A stretch of 38,162 nucleotides of DNA from Thermoanaerobaculia bacterium (lineage in GTDB: Bacteria; Acidobacteriota; Thermoanaerobaculia; Multivoradales; JAHEKO01): positions 1 through 38,162 of the forward strand of contig CALZKB010000009.1 in the NCBI GenBank assembly GCA_945787575.1, given 5' to 3'. The position numbers were made by a program, and so were the translations under genes. Shown here piece after piece: positions 20,881 to 35,750 of this stretch; position 1 is the stretch's first letter, and every line of letters starts with the position of its first letter. Under the pieces are notes generated by a model, which had not been told where the DNA came from, searched no databases, and saw nothing but the letters and a program-made list of their open reading frames with translations.

Positions 20881-23214
20881 TCAGAACGGGAAGAAGACCG
20901 GAACGAGAAACACCAACAGGACGAACAGCAGGAGGGTCAACGGAGTTCCGACCTTGAGATAGTCCGACGACCGATAGCCGCCGGCGCCCATGACCAGCAA
21001 GTTGGCCTTGTGGCTGAACGGCGTCATGAAAGCGGCCGAGGCAGCGAGGCTCACGCCCATCATCAACGGGTAGGGGCTGTAGTTGAGCTTGTCGGCCATC
21101 TCGAGGACGACGGGTGCCAGCAACACCACCGCGGGAGCGCCGTCGAGCCCTTGGCTCAGCAGGCTCGCCAGGACGATCAGCGCGGCGAGCACCGCGTGAG
21201 GTCCCAGGGGGCCCGCCAAGGCGGTGACGCTGTCGGCAAGGAAGTTGGCGGCTCCGGTGCGCTCCATGGCAAAGCCGACGGGCAGGACCGCGGCCACCAG
21301 AAAGATGGCTCGCCACTCGATCGTCTGGTAAGCCTCGCGCATCGTCAGTGCCCCGGCGAGGATGGCGAGCGAGGCCGCGGTGAAGGCCGCGACGTGGATC
21401 GGCTGAAAACCGGTCGCCACCAATACGATCATCAAGACGAGAGCGCCCAGCGCATACTTTGCCTTAGCTGGCCGGCGCGGTCCCTGATCGACCTCGGAAA
21501 GCACGACGAAGTCGGGTTCCGAGGCGAGCTTTTCGATCCGTTCCGGGGTGCCGAAGAGCAAGAGGGCGTCACCGGTGCGAAGCGGAATGTCGGCGAAGTC
21601 CGCATGGATGGGCCGTCCGTCGCGCCACAGCGCCAAGGCGATCATCCGGTACCGGTCACGGAAGTCCATGTCGGCCAGGGTCCGGCCGGCCGCCGCGGAG
21701 CGCGGCGCGACGCTCGCCTCGACCATCACCATCCTGTCGGTCTCGAGCGAGGTCTTCGCGGCCTTGGGCTTGAGCTCGACCTCTCCCATTTCGAGCAGCG
21801 CCGCGATGCTCGCGGGCCTGGAGGCGAGAAGCAACCGATCCCCGCTGTGAATCACCTCGTTCGGGGCGACAGCCAGGCGGGTGGAGTCGCCCCGTGCGAT
21901 GCCCGCGACCGTCAGATCCGCCAGCTCACCGAGCCGGCTCTCGGCGATCGAGACGCCGTCGAGGGCCGACCCGTCGGGAACGACGATCACGTAGATCCCG
22001 GTGCCGAGCTCCTCGACGGCGGCAAGCCCGACGTCCCCGATGTCGAAGTCGGCCTCATCCCCGAAGCGTTTCAAGGCGGCGTGCTCGCCCAGAGCGAGGA
22101 TCTCGTCGCCGGCGTCCAGGGGATAGTCGCCGAGCCGGTCGAGCCGCAGTGCGCCGTCCCGCCGAAGCCCGACGACGACGAGACCGAAACGGCTCCGGAA
22201 GTCGAGCTGGCGCAAGGTCTTGCCGACGACCGCCGTCTCCGGCTTGACGGTCGCGCGTACGCCGTCGACCCCGCCCATCAACCTGGGAAGCTCGTCCAGC
22301 CCGATCGCCTGAACCTCGACGTCCTGGAGCCTGAGGAGCTCGGTCAGGCGTTGCGCCTCGCCGTCGACGAAGAGCACGTCGCCGCCGCGCAGCTCGGCGC
22401 TCGCGCTTGCCTCGATACGCTTTTCCGCGCCGCGAAGAATCGACAGCACCTTGACTCCCAGGGTGTTGCCAATCCGGGTCTCGGCGAGGGTGCGGCCGTC
22501 GAGCGGCGAATCGTCGGCAAGTCGGATGAAGAACAGTCGCTCCTCGAGCTGGTAGAGCTGACTGAGGTCGGCACCGCCGGGTTGCGTGGCGCCGCGTTGC
22601 TCGCGAGAGGGAAGGAGCCTGCGCCCGAGGGTCAGCATGTAGACGACGCCGAGAGCGAGGATCGCCAACCCGAGCGGCGTGAAGTCGAAGAGCTGGAACG
22701 GCTCGAGACCGCGATCGGCGAGGATCTGAGCCGCCAGGATGTTGGGTGGCGTACCGACGAGGGTGGTCGTGCCCCCGAGGATGGCGCCGAAAGCGAGGGG
22801 CATGAAGAGGCGTGACGGAGCGAGACCCGCCCGCGGCCCGAGGGTCGCGACCGCCGGCATCAGGACGGCGACGGCGGCGATGTTGTTCATGAAGGCCGAC
22901 AGCACGCCGGCGACGACCATGAGCACGACGACCAGCCGGATCTCGCTGTCGCCGACCAACCGATGGATGTGCCTGCCGATGGTGTCGGCGACGCCGGTCG
23001 CGAGGAGAGCCGCACCGAGGATGAAGACCGCCAGCATGGTGATGACGGCGGGCGACGAGAATCCCTGGAACGCCTCGGCCGGCGTCACGTAACCGGCGAA
23101 AATCAACACCACGAGACCGAGAAACGCGGTGAGATCGACGGCCAGCTTCTCCGTCAGGAAAAGGTAGACCATGACGGCGAGTAGGGCGAAGAGAGCGCCG
23201 ATCTGAGGGGTCAC
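20881..23214 (-). CDS. SLC13/DASS-type transporter with four RCK_C domains
   Basis: This 777-residue inner-membrane anion or dicarboxylate transporter starts with GTG. An N-terminal half of about five or six helices (residues 1-200) contains FMNNIAAVAVLMPAV and GGTTTLVGTPPNILA, which match the clamshell motif of DASS transporters. A cytosolic insert follows, with four copies of the RCK/TrkA C-terminal type of domain at about 222-290, 318-385, 402-470 and 490-570 (GKTLRQLDFRSRFGLVVVGLRR; GRTLADMDFRDRYRMIALALWR). The second transporter half occupies 590-777 (LLSQGLDGAPAVVLLAPVVLE). Relatives such as YfbS usually have two RCK_C domains at a shorter length. The RCK domains should bind a ligand that gates transport; the ligand and the transported anion are unknown. 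It leads the minus-strand operon. Confidence 0.92.
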   Translation of the reverse strand: MTPQIGALFALLAVMVYLFLTEKLAVDLTAFLGLVVLIFAGYVTPAEAFQGFSSPAVITMLAVFILGAALLATGVADTIGRHIHRLVGDSEIRLVVVLMVVAGVLSAFMNNIAAVAVLMPAVATLGPRAGLAPSRLFMPLAFGAILGGTTTLVGTPPNILAAQILADRGLEPFQLFDFTPLGLAILALGVVYMLTLGRRLLPSREQRGATQPGGADLSQLYQLEERLFFIRLADDSPLDGRTLAETRIGNTLGVKVLSILRGAEKRIEASASAELRGGDVLFVDGEAQRLTELLRLQDVEVQAIGLDELPRLMGGVDGVRATVKPETAVVGKTLRQLDFRSRFGLVVVGLRRDGALRLDRLGDYPLDAGDEILALGEHAALKRFGDEADFDIGDVGLAAVEELGTGIYVIVVPDGSALDGVSIAESRLGELADLTVAGIARGDSTRLAVAPNEVIHSGDRLLLASRPASIAALLEMGEVELKPKAAKTSLETDRMVMVEASVAPRSAAAGRTLADMDFRDRYRMIALALWRDGRPIHADFADIPLRTGDALLLFGTPERIEKLASEPDFVVLSEVDQGPRRPAKAKYALGALVLMIVLVATGFQPIHVAAFTAASLAILAGALTMREAYQTIEWRAIFLVAAVLPVGFAMERTGAANFLADSVTALAGPLGPHAVLAALIVLASLLSQGLDGAPAVVLLAPVVLEMADKLNYSPYPLMMGVSLAASAAFMTPFSHKANLLVMGAGGYRSSDYLKVGTPLTLLLFVLLVFLVPVFFPF

Positions 23215-28424: not shown

Positions 28425-28685
<261 letters not shown>

Positions 28686-28716: not shown

Positions 28717-30195
28717 GTGAAGAGCGGGGCGCGCGCGACCGGTCGGCGGCTCGCTGGCCTGGCCGCCGTCGGCCTCGCTGCGTTCCAGGTCGCCGCCTGT
28801 GACGGGGCGATCGAGCCGTCGGACCTTGACTGGTTGGCGGAGTTCGATCCTTGGGTGATCGGCGTGATCGCGGCGGCGCTGGTGTTGGGCTCGATCCTGC
28901 TGTTCCGGCGCCGGCGCCCGCAACCCGGGGAGCCTGATCCCGCTTCGATGCCGGCGACCGCCATCCAGGAGTCGATCTCCCAGAGTCAGAGCAAGCGGAT
29001 GTCCCCCGGATGCATGGCGGGTATCTTCGGAGTGTTCCTGCTGTTCGGGGTCGGGTTTTCGCTGTTCTTCGTCGTTCCGGCTTTCCAGAACTTGCAGGCG
29101 CGGTCTTGGGCTCCGGTCGAATGCGAGATCCTCGAGAGCCGGGTCGAGAGCGGCTCGGGCGACGGCGATACCTACTCGGTCGAGGTGCGCTACCGATACC
29201 GCTGGGAAGGGGCAGAGTACGAGAGCGATCGCCACGACTTCCTGGGTGGTGCGTCGAGCGGAAGGTCCGCCAAACAAGAGGTCGTCGACGGTCTGCCGCA
29301 AGGCTCGACGACCACCTGTTGGGTCGACCCGGAAGAGCCGAGCGAAGCGGTGCTCTACCGAGGCTGGTCGTGGCCTTACCTGTTCGTGCTGCTGCCGCTC
29401 GTCTTCGTTTTGATCGGGATCAGTGGTGTCGTTTGGTCTTTGACGAGGGCGCGGGCGTTGAAGGCCGGCGCTTCGGGAACCGGACAGGCGCTCGCCACGC
29501 CCGAGGGGGGTGTCGGCTCCTTTCGTTCGATCGAGCTTCCGGTCATCCCCGAAGTCCAGGCCGGACCGGTGGAGCTCGAGGAAGCGCAAAGCCCTCTTGG
29601 CAAGCTGGGAGCCATTGTCTTCTTTGCGGTCTTCTGGAACGGAATCGTCGGGGTGTTCCTGTGGGTGGGCTATTCCGAGTGGAAGGAGACCGGCGAGTTC
29701 TCCGGCTGCCTCGCGCTCTTCCTCGTGCCGTTCGTCCTGGTCGGCATCCTGCTCCTCGTGAGCGTCCCCTACCAGATTCTGGCGCTCGCGAATCCACGCC
29801 CGAAGCTGATCGTCGGCGAAGGCGGAGTTCCACTCGGCGGATCGACTTCGCTGCAATGGAGCTTTCGAGGCGCGAGCTCACGGCTGAGGGATCTGAAGAT
29901 CTACCTCGAGGGGTCCGAGAGTGCCACCTACCGCCGGGGCACCGACACCCATACCGCCACCCGCGTCTTTGCCAGGGTCGACATCACGAGAATCGAAGGA
30001 GGCATGATGGTCAAGAGCGGTGGTGCGACGGTGCGGGTTCCTGCGGAGACCATGCATTCGTTCTCGGCGAAGAGGAACGAGGTCGAATGGAAGATCCACC
30101 TCGAAGCGTCGATCACGCACTGGCCGGACGTGATCACCGAGTTCCCGTTCGTGGTCTTGCCCCCGCAAGAGAGAGACGACAGATGGGAGAGCTGA
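28717..30195 (+). CDS. DUF3592-like membrane protein with an arrestin-like C-terminal domain
   Basis: This 492-residue protein has a GTG start (VKSGARATGRRL) and an N-terminal segment ending FQVAACDG that could be a lipobox. Hydrophobic helices follow at about 45-62 and 90-118 (CMAGIFGVFLLFGVGFSLFF). A DUF3592-type beta domain (WAPVECEILESRVESGSGDG, YRYRWEGAEYESDRHDF) leads to CWVDPEEPSEAVLYRG and another helix (LLPLVFVLIGISGVVW). Further helices at about 300-360 precede a soluble C-terminal beta-rich domain (PKLIVGEGGVPLGGSTSLQW, VPAETMHSFSAKR) that looks arrestin/Spo0M-like. It overlaps the next gene by 13 bases and leads a three-gene cassette. DUF3592 has no established function; the combination suggests a membrane platform for the ATPase. 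Confidence 0.85.
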   Translation: MKSGARATGRRLAGLAAVGLAAFQVAACDGAIEPSDLDWLAEFDPWVIGVIAAALVLGSILLFRRRRPQPGEPDPASMPATAIQESISQSQSKRMSPGCMAGIFGVFLLFGVGFSLFFVVPAFQNLQARSWAPVECEILESRVESGSGDGDTYSVEVRYRYRWEGAEYESDRHDFLGGASSGRSAKQEVVDGLPQGSTTTCWVDPEEPSEAVLYRGWSWPYLFVLLPLVFVLIGISGVVWSLTRARALKAGASGTGQALATPEGGVGSFRSIELPVIPEVQAGPVELEEAQSPLGKLGAIVFFAVFWNGIVGVFLWVGYSEWKETGEFSGCLALFLVPFVLVGILLLVSVPYQILALANPRPKLIVGEGGVPLGGSTSLQWSFRGASSRLRDLKIYLEGSESATYRRGTDTHTATRVFARVDITRIEGGMMVKSGGATVRVPAETMHSFSAKRNEVEWKIHLEASITHWPDVITEFPFVVLPPQERDDRWES

Positions 30196-30566
30196 GAGTC
30201 GACCTCGACGGTGAGCGGACCGTCTTTCGACCGGGCGAGCGGATTCGAGGCACCGCCTCCTGGCGGCTCGACGAGCCGCCGGAGGAGTTCGAGCTACGCC
30301 TCTTCTGGTTCACCGAAGGCAAGGGCGACCAGGATGTCGGCGTCGTCGAGACCCAGGCGCTCGGTGCCGCGGGAACGTTTGGCGAATTGGAGTTCGATTT
30401 CACCGCTCCCGAGGCTCCGCTCTCCTTCTCGGGCCAGCTCATCACCCTGATCTGGGCGGTCGAGCTGGTCGCCAATCCCGGCGGGTTGGCCGGTCGTCGC
30501 AACCTCGTCATCGCGTACGGCGATCGCGAGATCGACATCCGAGCCGACCCACCCGAGGTCCCCTGA
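30183..30566 (+). CDS. Small arrestin-like beta-sandwich protein
   Basis: This 127-residue, wholly beta-predicted protein (MGELRVDLDGERTVFRPGER, IRGTASWRLDEPPEEFELRL, FDFTAPEAPLSFSGQLITLI) has the look of a minimal arrestin-N or Spo0M-like sandwich: an initial strand, a PGE turn, and a basic final strand (NLVIAYGDREIDIRAD). There is no signal peptide or membrane helix, so it should be cytosolic. The ATG lies inside the end of the DUF3592 gene in another frame, and the ATPase starts three bases after its stop. It may bind the similar domain of the upstream protein; this is inference. No named family or activity is recognised beyond the fold-level likeness. Confidence 0.78.
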   Translation: MGELRVDLDGERTVFRPGERIRGTASWRLDEPPEEFELRLFWFTEGKGDQDVGVVETQALGAAGTFGELEFDFTAPEAPLSFSGQLITLIWAVELVANPGGLAGRRNLVIAYGDREIDIRADPPEVP

Positions 30567-30569
30567 ACG

Positions 30570-31166
30570 ATGCGCGCCGCCGACAACCCGTTTCGCGCGA
30601 CCCGCGTCGATGCCCTCGACTACCGGGCGCCGGGCTTCGAATGGAGGGCCCTGCTCGAGCGCCTCGACGGTCTCGGAGGCCGGGGCGTGGTGCTGGGTCC
30701 CCGAGGCTCGGGCAAGAGCACCCTGCTCCGCGGCTTGGAGGAGCGTCTTCGCGATCGCGGGCACGAAGTCCGCCGACTGCGCCCCGATCCGGATGATGCG
30801 TTGATTGCGCAGCGACAGCTCGATCGCTTCACGTCGGCTCTCTCGCCGACGACGGCTCTGCTGCTGGACGGCGCCGATCGAGTCGGGTGGCGGGAGTGGC
30901 GTCGCCTCTGCCTCGCGGCTCGCCCGCTCCCGGTGCTCGTCGTCACGACCCATCGCCGCGGCCGCCTGCCGACGCTGCATCGGTGCTCGACGAGCGCGGA
31001 GATCCTCACCGAGCTGCTCGCCGAGCTCGACGGCGGTCGACACGATCCGCTGGAGGTGCGAGCGCTATTCCGGCAGCACCGCGGCAATCTCCGGACCGCG
31101 CTACGACAGTTCTACGACCGCGCGGCGCGGGGAGTTCCGGCGGCCGACGGACGGGGCGGGGAATAG
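30570..31166 (+). CDS. Small P-loop AAA-like ATPase
   Basis: This 198-residue cytosolic protein starts three bases after the arrestin-like gene. Walker A is VVLGPRGSGKSTLLRGLEER (about 41-60). Walker B is TTALLLDGAD, and a sensor-like VLVVTTHRRG follows. The C-terminal helices (LTELLAELDGG, RQHRGNLRTALRQFYDRAA) resemble the lid of STAND/Orc-Cdc6-type ATPases, where the GNLR motif often contacts nucleotide. The N-terminus NPFRATRVDALDYRAPGFEW is like that of uncharacterised P-loop proteins I associate with Planctomycetes and Acidobacteria, from memory only. The Gly-rich tail is not conserved-looking. The coupling suggests a nucleotide switch for the DUF3592 membrane protein; the process is unknown. 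Confidence 0.85.
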   Translation: MRAADNPFRATRVDALDYRAPGFEWRALLERLDGLGGRGVVLGPRGSGKSTLLRGLEERLRDRGHEVRRLRPDPDDALIAQRQLDRFTSALSPTTALLLDGADRVGWREWRRLCLAARPLPVLVVTTHRRGRLPTLHRCSTSAEILTELLAELDGGRHDPLEVRALFRQHRGNLRTALRQFYDRAARGVPAADGRGGE

Positions 31167-31170
31167 GCGC

Positions 31171-31980
31171 GTGTTCAGCTCTCACGCGATCGAGCACGAG
31201 GGTCGCCGCATCGGCTTCGAAGAGGGTGGCCAAGGGGAGGCTCTGGTGATGACCCACAGCTTCCTCTGCTCGCGTCGGATGTGGGAGGCCCAGGCCGTCG
31301 AGCTCGCCCGCGACTATCGGGTGATCAACGTGGACGTGCGCGGCCACGGCGAGTCGGAGCTCGGTGGCGGCACCTTCACCATCGACGACCTCGCCGCCGA
31401 CGTCTTGGCGGTGCTCGACGCGGTCGGGATCGAGCGGGCGGCGTGGGTCGGCCTTTCGATCGGTGGCATGCTCTCCCTGCGCGCGGCGCTCCGGGCCCCC
31501 GAGCAGGTGGCCGGCCTCGTGCTCGCCGACAGTGGCGGAGACCGGGATCCGTGGGTCAAGCGGACCCGCTACCGCCTGATGGCGACCGGTGCGCGCTGGC
31601 TCGGCATCGGGCCGTTCTTGCCGGCGGTGACCAAACTGATGTTCGGGGCAACGGCGATTCTCGAGCAGCCGGCCCTCGTCGACTCCTGGACAGCGGAGTT
31701 CCGGAGCGTTCCGATGGCGACGATCCTGGCGGGCGTCGACACCCTGTGCCGAAGGCGATCGGTGCTTCATCGACTCGGCGAGGTCTCGGCACCCGCGCTG
31801 GTGCTCGTCGGTGCGGAAGACCTCGCCCAGCCGCCCGAGCGCTCGCGGATGCTGGCTGACGCACTCCCCAACGCGGTGCTCGAGGTGATCCCCGCGGCCG
31901 GGCATCTGAGCGCCGTCGAGCAGCCACTCGCCGTGACCGAGGCGATCCGCCGTTTTCTCGCTTCGCTCGGGGAGGGCTAG
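31171..31980 (+). CDS. Cytosolic alpha/beta hydrolase
   Basis: This 269-residue protein has a GTG start four bases after the ATPase stop and no signal peptide. The catalytic triad is Ser96 in WVGLSIGGMLSLRAAL, Asp in LVGAEDLAQPPER and His in PAAGHLSAVEQP. MTHSFLCSRRMWEAQ is an oxyanion-hole region resembling 3-oxoadipate enol-lactonase and related esterases, but with THS in place of the usual HG. VDVRGHGESEL matches the family's conserved loop, and a helical cap spans about 130-185. Its position suggests it ends the plus-strand run. Without aromatic-degradation genes nearby, a pcaD role is not supported. Substrate unknown. Confidence 0.9.
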   Translation: MFSSHAIEHEGRRIGFEEGGQGEALVMTHSFLCSRRMWEAQAVELARDYRVINVDVRGHGESELGGGTFTIDDLAADVLAVLDAVGIERAAWVGLSIGGMLSLRAALRAPEQVAGLVLADSGGDRDPWVKRTRYRLMATGARWLGIGPFLPAVTKLMFGATAILEQPALVDSWTAEFRSVPMATILAGVDTLCRRRSVLHRLGEVSAPALVLVGAEDLAQPPERSRMLADALPNAVLEVIPAAGHLSAVEQPLAVTEAIRRFLASLGEG

Positions 31981-32897: not shown

Positions 32898-34157
32898 TCA
32901 GCCGGGCGGCGCCGAGCCACCCAGGCAATAGAGATGATCGGCGGTCCGCAGGTAGATCCGGCCGTCGGCCACCGCCAGCGACGAGAGGGTGTACTCGTCG
33001 ATCGAGTTCTCGGCGAGCACGGCGAACTCCGCTCCGGCGGCCAGCACCGTCGTCGTGCCGCTCTCGCCGGTCGCGTAGAGCCGGCCGGCGGCGACCACGG
33101 GCGACGAGCTGTAGGTGTCGGGCTTGATGCGCTCGGGGCCCCACACCACGTCTCCGGTCCGGCGATCGAGACAGAAGACGATGCCACGATCTTTGACCAC
33201 GAAGACGTAATCGTCGGTCACTACCGGGGTCGGAACGTCAGGGCCGTCGTCGCTCGACCAGCGGACGGTGGGTGGTCCGGAGTCGGGGGCCTCGATCGCC
33301 AGCATCGGCTTGACTCGTGACGGTACGAGGATCAGGTCGCCGTCGACGATCGGCGAGGCGACGATCCGTTGCATCGGGTTGCGGGTGGGGTTGAGGCCGC
33401 CGAGGCGCCAGAGCTCCTCGCCGCCGCCGAGGTCGTGGCCGGTGACGTAGTCGCCGCCCGAAACGACTAGCTCGGTGCCGCCGGCGCGGTGGAGGAGCGC
33501 CGGTGTCGTATAGGCGTCGGGCGCCTCCCGCGGGGCATCGGTCGGCCGCTCGACGCGCCAGCGAGTCTCGCCGGTCGCCGCGTCGATCGCCATCACGTAG
33601 GAGGGATCGTCGGTATGGAAACCGTGGAGCACCTGAACGTAGAGCGTCCCTTCGTGCAGCAACGGCGACGACGAGTAGCCGTGGAGGATCCCGAACTTGC
33701 CGTAGTCGGCCTGGAGGTCGCGACGCCAGCGCCGGTTGCCGTCGAAGTCGAGGGCGGTGAGCACGCCGGTGCCGGTCATCACCCAGACCTGCTCACCGTC
33801 GGTCACCGGCGATGGGGAGGACATGTTGCCCTTGCGCTTCGCTTCGTCGCGATCGTCGAGCTCGCGTTTCCACAAGACCTCGCCGTCGGCGAGAGCCACG
33901 CTCCACAAGTAGAGCTTGCCGTTCTCCGCGACGTGGACGAACACCCGATCGCCGGCGAGGATCGGCGTCGCGCCGCTCAGACCCGGAAGGGGGAGCTTCC
34001 AGACGACGTTGGACGAAGCGTCCCAACGCAGAGGGACGGCCCCATCGAGACTGACGCCGTTGCGGTCGGGGCCTCGCCAGTGCGGCCAGTCGGCAGCGAT
34101 CGCGAAAGAGGCAGAGAACGAGAAGAGGAGAGCGAGAACCGCTGAGCGACGAGTCAT
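32898..34157 (-). CDS. Exported PQQ-type beta-propeller protein
   Basis: This 419-residue protein starts MTRRSAVLALLFSFSASFAIAA, a signal peptide, with GGAGG eight bases upstream. The mature start WPHWRGPDRNGVSLDGAVPL is a hallmark of many secreted propellers in Planctomycetes and Acidobacteria. Repeated blade motifs follow (LYLWSVALADGEVLWKRELD, VWVMTGTGVLTALDFDGNRR, YVMAIDAATGETRW, VFCLDRRTGDVVW). These are PQQ-like repeats; PQQ-binding dehydrogenase residues are not evident, so it is more likely a binding or assembly protein (BamB-like) than an enzyme. A longer frame from 34199 lacks a ribosome site. It is transcribed divergently from the related gene at 34221, with only 63 bases between. 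Confidence 0.9.
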   Translation of the reverse strand: MTRRSAVLALLFSFSASFAIAADWPHWRGPDRNGVSLDGAVPLRWDASSNVVWKLPLPGLSGATPILAGDRVFVHVAENGKLYLWSVALADGEVLWKRELDDRDEAKRKGNMSSPSPVTDGEQVWVMTGTGVLTALDFDGNRRWRRDLQADYGKFGILHGYSSSPLLHEGTLYVQVLHGFHTDDPSYVMAIDAATGETRWRVERPTDAPREAPDAYTTPALLHRAGGTELVVSGGDYVTGHDLGGGEELWRLGGLNPTRNPMQRIVASPIVDGDLILVPSRVKPMLAIEAPDSGPPTVRWSSDDGPDVPTPVVTDDYVFVVKDRGIVFCLDRRTGDVVWGPERIKPDTYSSSPVVAAGRLYATGESGTTTVLAAGAEFAVLAENSIDEYTLSSLAVADGRIYLRTADHLYCLGGSAPPG

Positions 34158-34208
34158 TGTGAGCCTCCGAGGACTAGTTGCCTTGAATCCGAGAGTCAAC
34201 CGTGCCGG

Positions 34209-34220: not shown

Positions 34221-35750
34221 ATGAAGCGAAATTCCGTCCGCTGGTGGCCGCTGGTCGCGATCGCCATCCTCTGGTTGGGTGCGCTCGCCTGGATCTGGTC
34301 GAGCGCCGAGCTCACCGGTCAGGACCGGGTCACGCGAGCGCTCGGCACGGTCGTCCTGGCGGTGCTGCTCGGGCTCGTCTGGCTGCTCGCCTTGAGCCGG
34401 CTGCCGTGGCGGCGCCGGCTCCTCGGGTTCGGCGTCGTGTTGGCGGTCGGCGTGGCGCTCGGCTGGAGCGTGCGGATTCGCGGAGTGAGCGGCAATCTCG
34501 TGCCGATCTTCGAATGGCGCTGGTCGGGCGGTGGAGCGCAGGTGCGCGGTGGCGGTGGCTCAGAGACCGGATCGCTGATCGGCCCGCTCACGGACTATCC
34601 GCAGTTTCTTGGTCCCGACCGCGACGCGACCGTCGACGGACCGCTGTTGGCGCGCGGCTGGAACGAGCGGCCGCGCGAGGTCTGGCGGCAGCCGATCGGC
34701 GAAGGTTGGTCCGCGTTTGCCGTCGCCGGCACCCTCGCCGTGACCCAGGAGCAGCGTGGCGATCGCGAGGTGGTCTCGGCGTGGGATCTCGCCAGCGGCG
34801 TTCGCGTCTGGGAGCACGAGGACTCGGCACGCTACGAGACGACGATCGCGGGCGTCGGACCGCGGGCGACACCGACGATCGTCGACGGCACCGTCTTCAC
34901 CATGGGAGCGAAGGGTCGATTGAACGCGCTCGAGCTCGCCGGCGGTACGCTGCTGTGGACCCACGACCTCGTCGAGGAGTTCGGTGCAGCGACCCCGGAC
35001 TGGGGTCGCAGCGGCTCGCCGCTCGTCGTCGACGGCCTGGTCGTCACGGCCGTTGGGGGCGGACTCGGTGACGCTTCGTTGATGGCCTTTGAAGCGGCGT
35101 CTGGCGTGCCGGTCTGGCAGGCGGGACGCGACGGCATCAGCTACTCGTCACCGCAGGTAGCGACGCTCGCCGGTCGCCGGCAGATCGTGATCTTCAACCG
35201 CGGTTCGATCTCCGGTCACGACGTCGCGACCGGGCGTGAGCTATGGAGCTATCCCTGGTCGAGCGGTCAGCCCAACGTCGCCATGCCGCTGCCGCTCGGC
35301 GCCGCTCGACTGCTCGTCTCGAGCGGCTACGGCGCGGGCAGCAAGCTGCTCGAGTTGTCAGCCGCCGGGGAAGGCCTGGAGGTCCAACTGATCTGGGAGA
35401 GCACGCGGCTCAAAGCCAAGTTCACCAACGTCGTGGAACACGCGGGTTACGTCTACGGCCTCGACGACGGGGTGCTCGTCTGCCTCGACCCCGAGACCGG
35501 CGAGCGCTGCTGGAAGCGCGGACGTTACGGCCACGGCCAGGTGATCCTGGTGGGGGATCTGCTGCTTCTGACGACCGAGAAGGGCGACGTCGTGCTCGTC
35601 GAGCCGAACCCCGAGGAGCATCGCGAGCTCGCGCGCTTCACCGCCTTCGACGGCAAGAGCTGGAACCCGCCGGCGCTCGTGGGACGCTATCTGCTGCTGC
35701 GCAATCATCGCGAGGCGGCGCTCTACGAGCTACCGGTGATCGCCGGCTGA
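34221..35750 (+). CDS. Membrane-anchored PQQ-type beta-propeller
   Basis: This 509-residue protein has three N-terminal helices (about 7-26, 38-58 and 66-84). With basic loops MKRNSVR and RLPWRRR inside, the propeller would face the periplasm. From about residue 125 it repeats the label seen in the divergent neighbour (YPQFLGPDRDATVDGPLLA), followed by blades such as VVSAWDLASGVRVWEHED, LNALELAGGTLLWTHDL, ISGHDVATGRELWSYPW and LVCLDPETGERCWKRG. The shared layout suggests a duplicated gene pair. As with its neighbour, PQQ ligands are not obvious. Possible roles are envelope assembly or sensing; neither is proven. Start ATG MKRNSVRWW. Confidence 0.9.
   Translation: MKRNSVRWWPLVAIAILWLGALAWIWSSAELTGQDRVTRALGTVVLAVLLGLVWLLALSRLPWRRRLLGFGVVLAVGVALGWSVRIRGVSGNLVPIFEWRWSGGGAQVRGGGGSETGSLIGPLTDYPQFLGPDRDATVDGPLLARGWNERPREVWRQPIGEGWSAFAVAGTLAVTQEQRGDREVVSAWDLASGVRVWEHEDSARYETTIAGVGPRATPTIVDGTVFTMGAKGRLNALELAGGTLLWTHDLVEEFGAATPDWGRSGSPLVVDGLVVTAVGGGLGDASLMAFEAASGVPVWQAGRDGISYSSPQVATLAGRRQIVIFNRGSISGHDVATGRELWSYPWSSGQPNVAMPLPLGAARLLVSSGYGAGSKLLELSAAGEGLEVQLIWESTRLKAKFTNVVEHAGYVYGLDDGVLVCLDPETGERCWKRGRYGHGQVILVGDLLLLTTEKGDVVLVEPNPEEHRELARFTAFDGKSWNPPALVGRYLLLRNHREAALYELPVIAG

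Follow-up and report, generated by a model that had tools for sequence, protein, structure and literature searches.

The window, that is, the whole stretch of 38,162 nucleotides from a Thermoanaerobaculia bacterium that was analysed, carries a cassette of three adjoining genes, here called P1, P2 and P3, which encode a membrane protein, a small free protein and a small ATPase, respectively (Table 1). As the first-pass annotation had described, P1 and P2 overlap by 13 bases (30183-30195) and a gap of 3 bases (30567-30569) separates P2 from P3, with all coordinates and reading frames proving exact. Immediately upstream, a small SEC-C motif protein (28425-28685, forward strand; PF02810, E 1.4e-11) ends 31 bases before the start of P1, and immediately downstream, an alpha/beta hydrolase (31171-31980, forward strand; Abhydrolase_1, E 4e-27) starts 4 bases after P3; in relatives, no SEC-C motif gene was found beside the cassette and no alpha/beta hydrolase as its conserved neighbour. 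Farther away lie two adjacent, divergent genes for PQQ/BamB-like beta-propeller proteins (32898-34163, reverse strand, and 34221-35750, forward strand) and a gene for a citrate-transporter-type protein with four TrkA-C domains (20881-23214, reverse strand). A search for a second P3 in the bacterium's own genome, an assembly of 484 contigs, returned weak P-loop matches only.

Table 1. Genes and features of the three-gene cassette (positions in the window).
Feature	Position	Strand	Basis
P1, DUF3592 plus arrestin C-lobe, 492 aa	28717..30195	+	ORF, translation; PF12158; AF2 model
P1 TM1	29005..29106	+	hydropathy; AF2 model helix 20-53
P1 DUF3592 domain, TM1-TM2 interval, putatively extracytoplasmic	29116..29367	+	Pfam; model strands 55-126
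P1 TM2	29371..29469	+	AF2 model, hydropathy
P1 membrane hairpin TM3-TM4	29593..29787	+	model helices 216-248, 253-280
P1 predicted arrestin C-lobe sandwich, model residues 284-401	29797..30150	+	AF2 model, structural matches
P2, free arrestin N-lobe by profile, 127 aa, no membrane segment seen	30183..30566	+	profile match to fused relatives
P2 signature PxxPLSFSGxLxxLxWAxEL	30408..30467	+	alignments
P3, predicted minimal AAA+ ATPase, 198 aa	30570..31166	+	model; RFC matches
P3 Walker A GPRGSGKS	30696..30719	+	G43, G46, G48, K49 invariant in 17 homologues
P3 Walker B Asp-Gly (D100, G101)	30867..30872	+	motif scoring
P3 GNLR lid motif, residues 172-175	31083..31094	+	alignment, model

P1 contains a DUF3592 domain (PF12158, residues 134-217), which was matched with an E-value of 4.5e-16 and 59.7 bits against a Pfam cut-off of 25.3. 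Because the part of P1 that is conserved in relatives begins only near residue 85-98, the true start may be the ATG at 28948 instead of the GTG at 28717. The 77-residue N-terminal extension, consisting of a signal-like stretch that ends in VAAC and then one hydrophobic helix, is absent from the nearest relative. An AF2 model of P1, whose chain and residue numbering begin at the ATG 28948, reached a pLDDT of 83.3 and a pTM of 0.57, with pLDDT mostly above 90 in the C-lobe. The helices and the domain order would place DUF3592 outside and the C-lobe in the cytoplasm. In the structure comparison of this model, all 50 matches listed belong to the arrestin superfamily (Z 9.8-12.2), the best of them for the C-lobe being VPS26B (Z 12.2, 128 residues aligned, rmsd 2.4), and Foldseek agreed, with matches to the ARRDC3 N-lobe (E 2.1e-7) and Spo0M (E 3.6e-6). 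By its model, the C-terminal domain of P1 is an arrestin-type sandwich, the end that had been proposed for this protein at first reading; no Arrestin_C or Spo0M profile match was found in P1 with Pfam, Spo0M being checked at E 1. Moreover, the VPS26 alignments begin at model residue 200-206, upstream of the hairpin, and since the structural matches include the strand before it, the hairpin, which is hydrophobic, is predicted to interrupt the C-lobe after its first strand. In the P1 proteins of five other loci (L027, L044, L045, L049 and L076), an additional DUF3592-type unit precedes the first, as though the outer region had been doubled.

P2 alone matched no Pfam family, nor Spo0M at E 1. Its profile, in contrast, aligns to the N-lobe of single-chain (fused) relatives (hhalign E 8.7e-14), and such relatives match Arrestin_N (PF00339) with E-values of 6.8e-13, 5.5e-9 and 5e-6, all above the Pfam cut-off; Arrestin_C (PF02752) was seen in two of them below the cut-off (E 0.0019 and 0.0069). 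The P1 C-terminal domain aligns to the C-lobe of single-chain relatives (E 3.9e-15). In addition, alignments linked through the fused relatives relate the P2 signature to FeLPxxPxSfeG...v.Y.vkA of the ARRDC3 N-lobe. By profile, P2 is an arrestin N-lobe. The likeness between P2 and the P1 C-terminal domain is marginal (hhalign E 0.023), and the two are complementary halves of one split arrestin, not recent duplicates. The two sandwiches, earlier said to be of similar look, thus agree in fold, both being arrestin-type according to the P1 model and the P2 profile, but the similarity is that of an N-lobe to a C-lobe and not that of copies.

The model of P3 (pLDDT 91.6, pTM 0.84) consists of an AAA+ core and a three-helix lid and lies closest to RFC (Z 13.6, 185 residues aligned; Foldseek E 7.1e-7), with other clamp loaders and ORC also near; in Pfam, AAA matches were obtained below threshold. 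On this model, P3 is an AAA+ protein of clamp-loader/ORC shape, and the P-loop ATPase with a GNLR lid that had been read from the translation was recovered, with G172 and R175 of that motif invariant among 17 homologues. R175 would occupy the sensor-2 position.

The gene order recurs well outside the window. P2 was detected in 16 of 99 related genomes, in 13 of which P1, P2 and P3 follow one another in this order on one strand, all 13 being of the split type; the other three comprise two genomes with the fused version and one spurious match. A scan of named genomes yielded 18 loci, which belong to Acidobacteriota, Planctomycetota and Verrucomicrobiales, with P1, P2 and P3 sequence at 16; L059 has P1-P2 and L057 has P2 only, and P3-like sequence lies elsewhere in both genomes, for L059 in the form of two fragments at contig edges. 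The order P1-P2-P3 is shared by most loci of Planctomycetota and Verrucomicrobiota, so that a joint comparison of the three proteins, as the first-pass annotation had suggested, finds them neighbours across three phyla. The nearest named relative with the cassette is an Acidobacteriota bacterium, and other matches among the relatives are labelled Thermoanaerobaculia. No conserved neighbours beyond P1-P2-P3 were found, the flanks differing between families, and genes for the retromer partners VPS35 and VPS29 were not noticed nearby. The P2 matches at L040 and L041 fall inside unrelated genes and were discarded as spurious.

The two lobes also occur on a single chain. P1 and P2 form one frame at L035/L053, L124, L169 and L172, loci that span the three phyla. 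In a two-gene version without DUF3592 (L037-L039), the gene after an AAA gene encodes an N-lobe, a membrane hairpin and a C-lobe as a single protein; in the Planctomycetota sample, the two-gene AAA gene adjoins a single-chain arrestin at five of ten loci, and genome G082 holds both versions (L030 and L037). A mixed arrangement is seen at L171 (664-1893), where a divergent AAA gene of the two-gene type adjoins a split P1 C-lobe/P2 pair. Three two-gene single-chain arrestins (L136, 4311-5831; L138, 2457-4217; L140, 4213-5694) have an added C-terminal domain around the stretch DGRTVTGxLAGT. A broader family with the same hairpin and C-lobe-like sandwich (L081, 3107-4864; L078, 5865-7139; L079, 651-2309; L080, 6924-8090) carries the stretch TGSGxNR or VSGSG together with an extra C-terminal domain and lacks P2 and P3; DUF3592-type similarity to P1 is found in the L081 protein only.

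Co-occurrence of the genes extends beyond their adjacency. P3 was found in 54 of the 632 genomes, 53 of which also hold P2. Genomes with both, with P2 only and with P3 only number 13, 3 and 0 of 99 among the Acidobacteriota relatives (Fisher p 9e-14), 30, 12 and 1 of 292 in Planctomycetota (p 4e-30) and 10, 4 and 0 of 241 in Verrucomicrobiota (p 7e-15), all three p-values ignoring shared ancestry. In the sole P3-only case, G560, the end of the contig cuts P3 short, and the fused version accounts for nine of the 12 P2-only Planctomycetota. In G393, G492 and G537, P3 is present but unlinked from P1-P2, and in G780 it lies 7 kb from them; because P3 is retained even where it is unlinked, its co-occurrence with P2 is more than hitch-hiking. 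On the other hand, six genomes (G380, G441, G642, G746, G818 and G867) have P1-P2 with no detectable P3, and P3 may therefore be dispensable or replaceable.

The idea that the three proteins form one machine, raised at first reading, is strongly supported by the genomic evidence of co-occurrence and fusions, on which P1, P2 and P3 very probably constitute one undescribed molecular machine. A system in which a membrane-anchored split arrestin is run by a dedicated AAA+ protein, with P3 as a binding-driven switch, is given an even chance of being correct. In such a system, the P1 hairpin would keep the C-lobe on the cytoplasmic side of the membrane, and DUF3592 on the outer side, a probable sensor, would gate the split arrestin. 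P2, the free N-lobe, would dock on the C-lobe of P1 and complete a two-lobed arrestin-like scaffold, which would grip a client that is most likely a membrane protein as well. P3 would bind ATP, and its lack of the usual catalytic glutamate makes a slow or binding-driven switch its most likely role, by which the N-lobe would be loaded, locked or released. We infer every part of this mechanism, namely the physical complex, the topology, the direction of sensing, the client and the role of ATP.

The Walker B motif of P3 bears on the leading alternative, in which P3 does not switch by binding but hydrolyses ATP and, as a motor or chaperone, remodels or takes apart the membrane arrestin, in the way proposed for MoxR proteins and their vWA adaptors. 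At Walker B, Asp-Glu is the usual pair in AAA+ proteins. In three-gene P3 proteins, the residue after the Asp is Gly in 39, Ser in 4 and something else in a few, never Glu, although these residues were scored automatically and some of the few others are mis-picked motifs. The absence of the catalytic Glu from every three-gene P3 scored, mostly with Gly in its place, argues against a motor. An acidic residue (Asp or Glu) two positions past the missing Glu is nevertheless kept in many, indeed most, three-gene P3 proteins, which may therefore still hydrolyse ATP; the P3 fold, moreover, is that of working AAA+ ATPases. The Walker-B Glu is present in all seven scored AAA proteins of two-gene relatives, which suggests that hydrolysis is ancestral or useful there and keeps a motor or chaperone in contention, as a less likely competitor of the binding-driven switch.

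A patchily inherited system for defence or conflict, with DUF3592 or the lobes detecting an invader and the ATPase setting off an effector in the membrane, is an improbable reading of the cassette. The combination of an ATPase and a membrane part is a common layout among such systems, and the distribution is indeed patchy, the cassette being found in only 2 of 18 genomes of the window's own family. However, PADLOC gave no convincing match: for P3 it returned only weak P-loop hits of short extent (37 residues in the best, E 1.7e-4), for P1 a best E of 0.054 over 58 residues and for P2 nothing. No P2 relatives were found in phage or plasmid collections and no P1 relatives in plasmids; the neighbours are housekeeping-type genes; and no effector domain could be recognised. 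That the three genes are merely co-transcribed neighbours with separate functions is highly improbable, for although other window genes are packed as tightly without being conserved neighbours, such as the hydrolase just past P3, the association holds with unlinked genes, P1-P2 fusions occur in three phyla, and P3 lacks P2 only once, on the truncated contig.

Read as a split arrestin joined by a dedicated AAA+ protein, the cassette can be set against known systems. With the arrestin clan, including the alpha-arrestins ARRDC3 and TXNIP, the beta-arrestins and VPS26, it shares two arrestin-type sandwiches, the N-lobe signature and the C-lobe fold. It differs from the clan in having the lobes on two chains, a membrane hairpin in the C-lobe, an added DUF3592 and a dedicated AAA+ partner; the clan has both lobes on one soluble chain, the cassette divides them between P1 and P2, and some relatives of the cassette keep them on a single chain. 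P3 resembles the AAA+ clamp-loader/ORC-Cdc6 group (RFC, RarA/MgsA, RuvB, DnaA and MuB) in aligning over nearly its full length and in its Walker A and invariant lid arginine, but it has only 198 residues, no DNA-binding or collar domain, no Walker-B Glu, and arrestin lobes as partners. The L081 DUF3592-type membrane protein has a DUF3592-type region, a hairpin and a C-lobe-like sandwich with TGSGxNR, but, unlike P1, it has an extra C-terminal domain and no adjoining N-lobe or ATPase. FtsH is an AAA+ protease. In bacteria and archaea, the described branch of the arrestin clan is Spo0M (PMC2515105), and Spo0M of Bacillus subtilis has been reported to interact with FtsH (PMC5325327). Like the cassette, Spo0M is a bacterial arrestin-clan protein, and it is among the Foldseek matches to the P1 lobe; in contrast to the cassette, which has no Spo0M Pfam match, it is a single chain without DUF3592 or partners of the P1-P3 type.

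The open-access literature yielded no description of a system that combines these three parts and mentioned DUF3592 only in an unrelated study; NCBIfam and PADLOC gave no informative entry for the cassette. The first-pass remark that no described function was known for such a set thus holds for the libraries and open-access papers searched, while each single fold is known.

Among the papers found, the bacterial arrestin clan has been described through Spo0M only, and a conserved split arrestin, tethered to the membrane and paired with an AAA+ protein of its own, would be a bacterial arrestin machine of an undescribed kind. The parts are small enough for reconstitution, so that the question of whether they form one machine is directly testable. 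Such a system would also bear on the origin of eukaryotic arrestins and VPS26 and would open a way to study DUF3592, whose function is not known. Tentatively, and at somewhat less than even probability, the cassette can be regarded as an arrestin system, present in at least three phyla, in which a split arrestin is embedded in the membrane and coupled to a sensor, its lobes are joined and released by a dedicated clamp-loader-like AAA+ protein, and a membrane client is thereby controlled. If this is true, the client would be controlled as eukaryotic arrestins control receptors and transporters.
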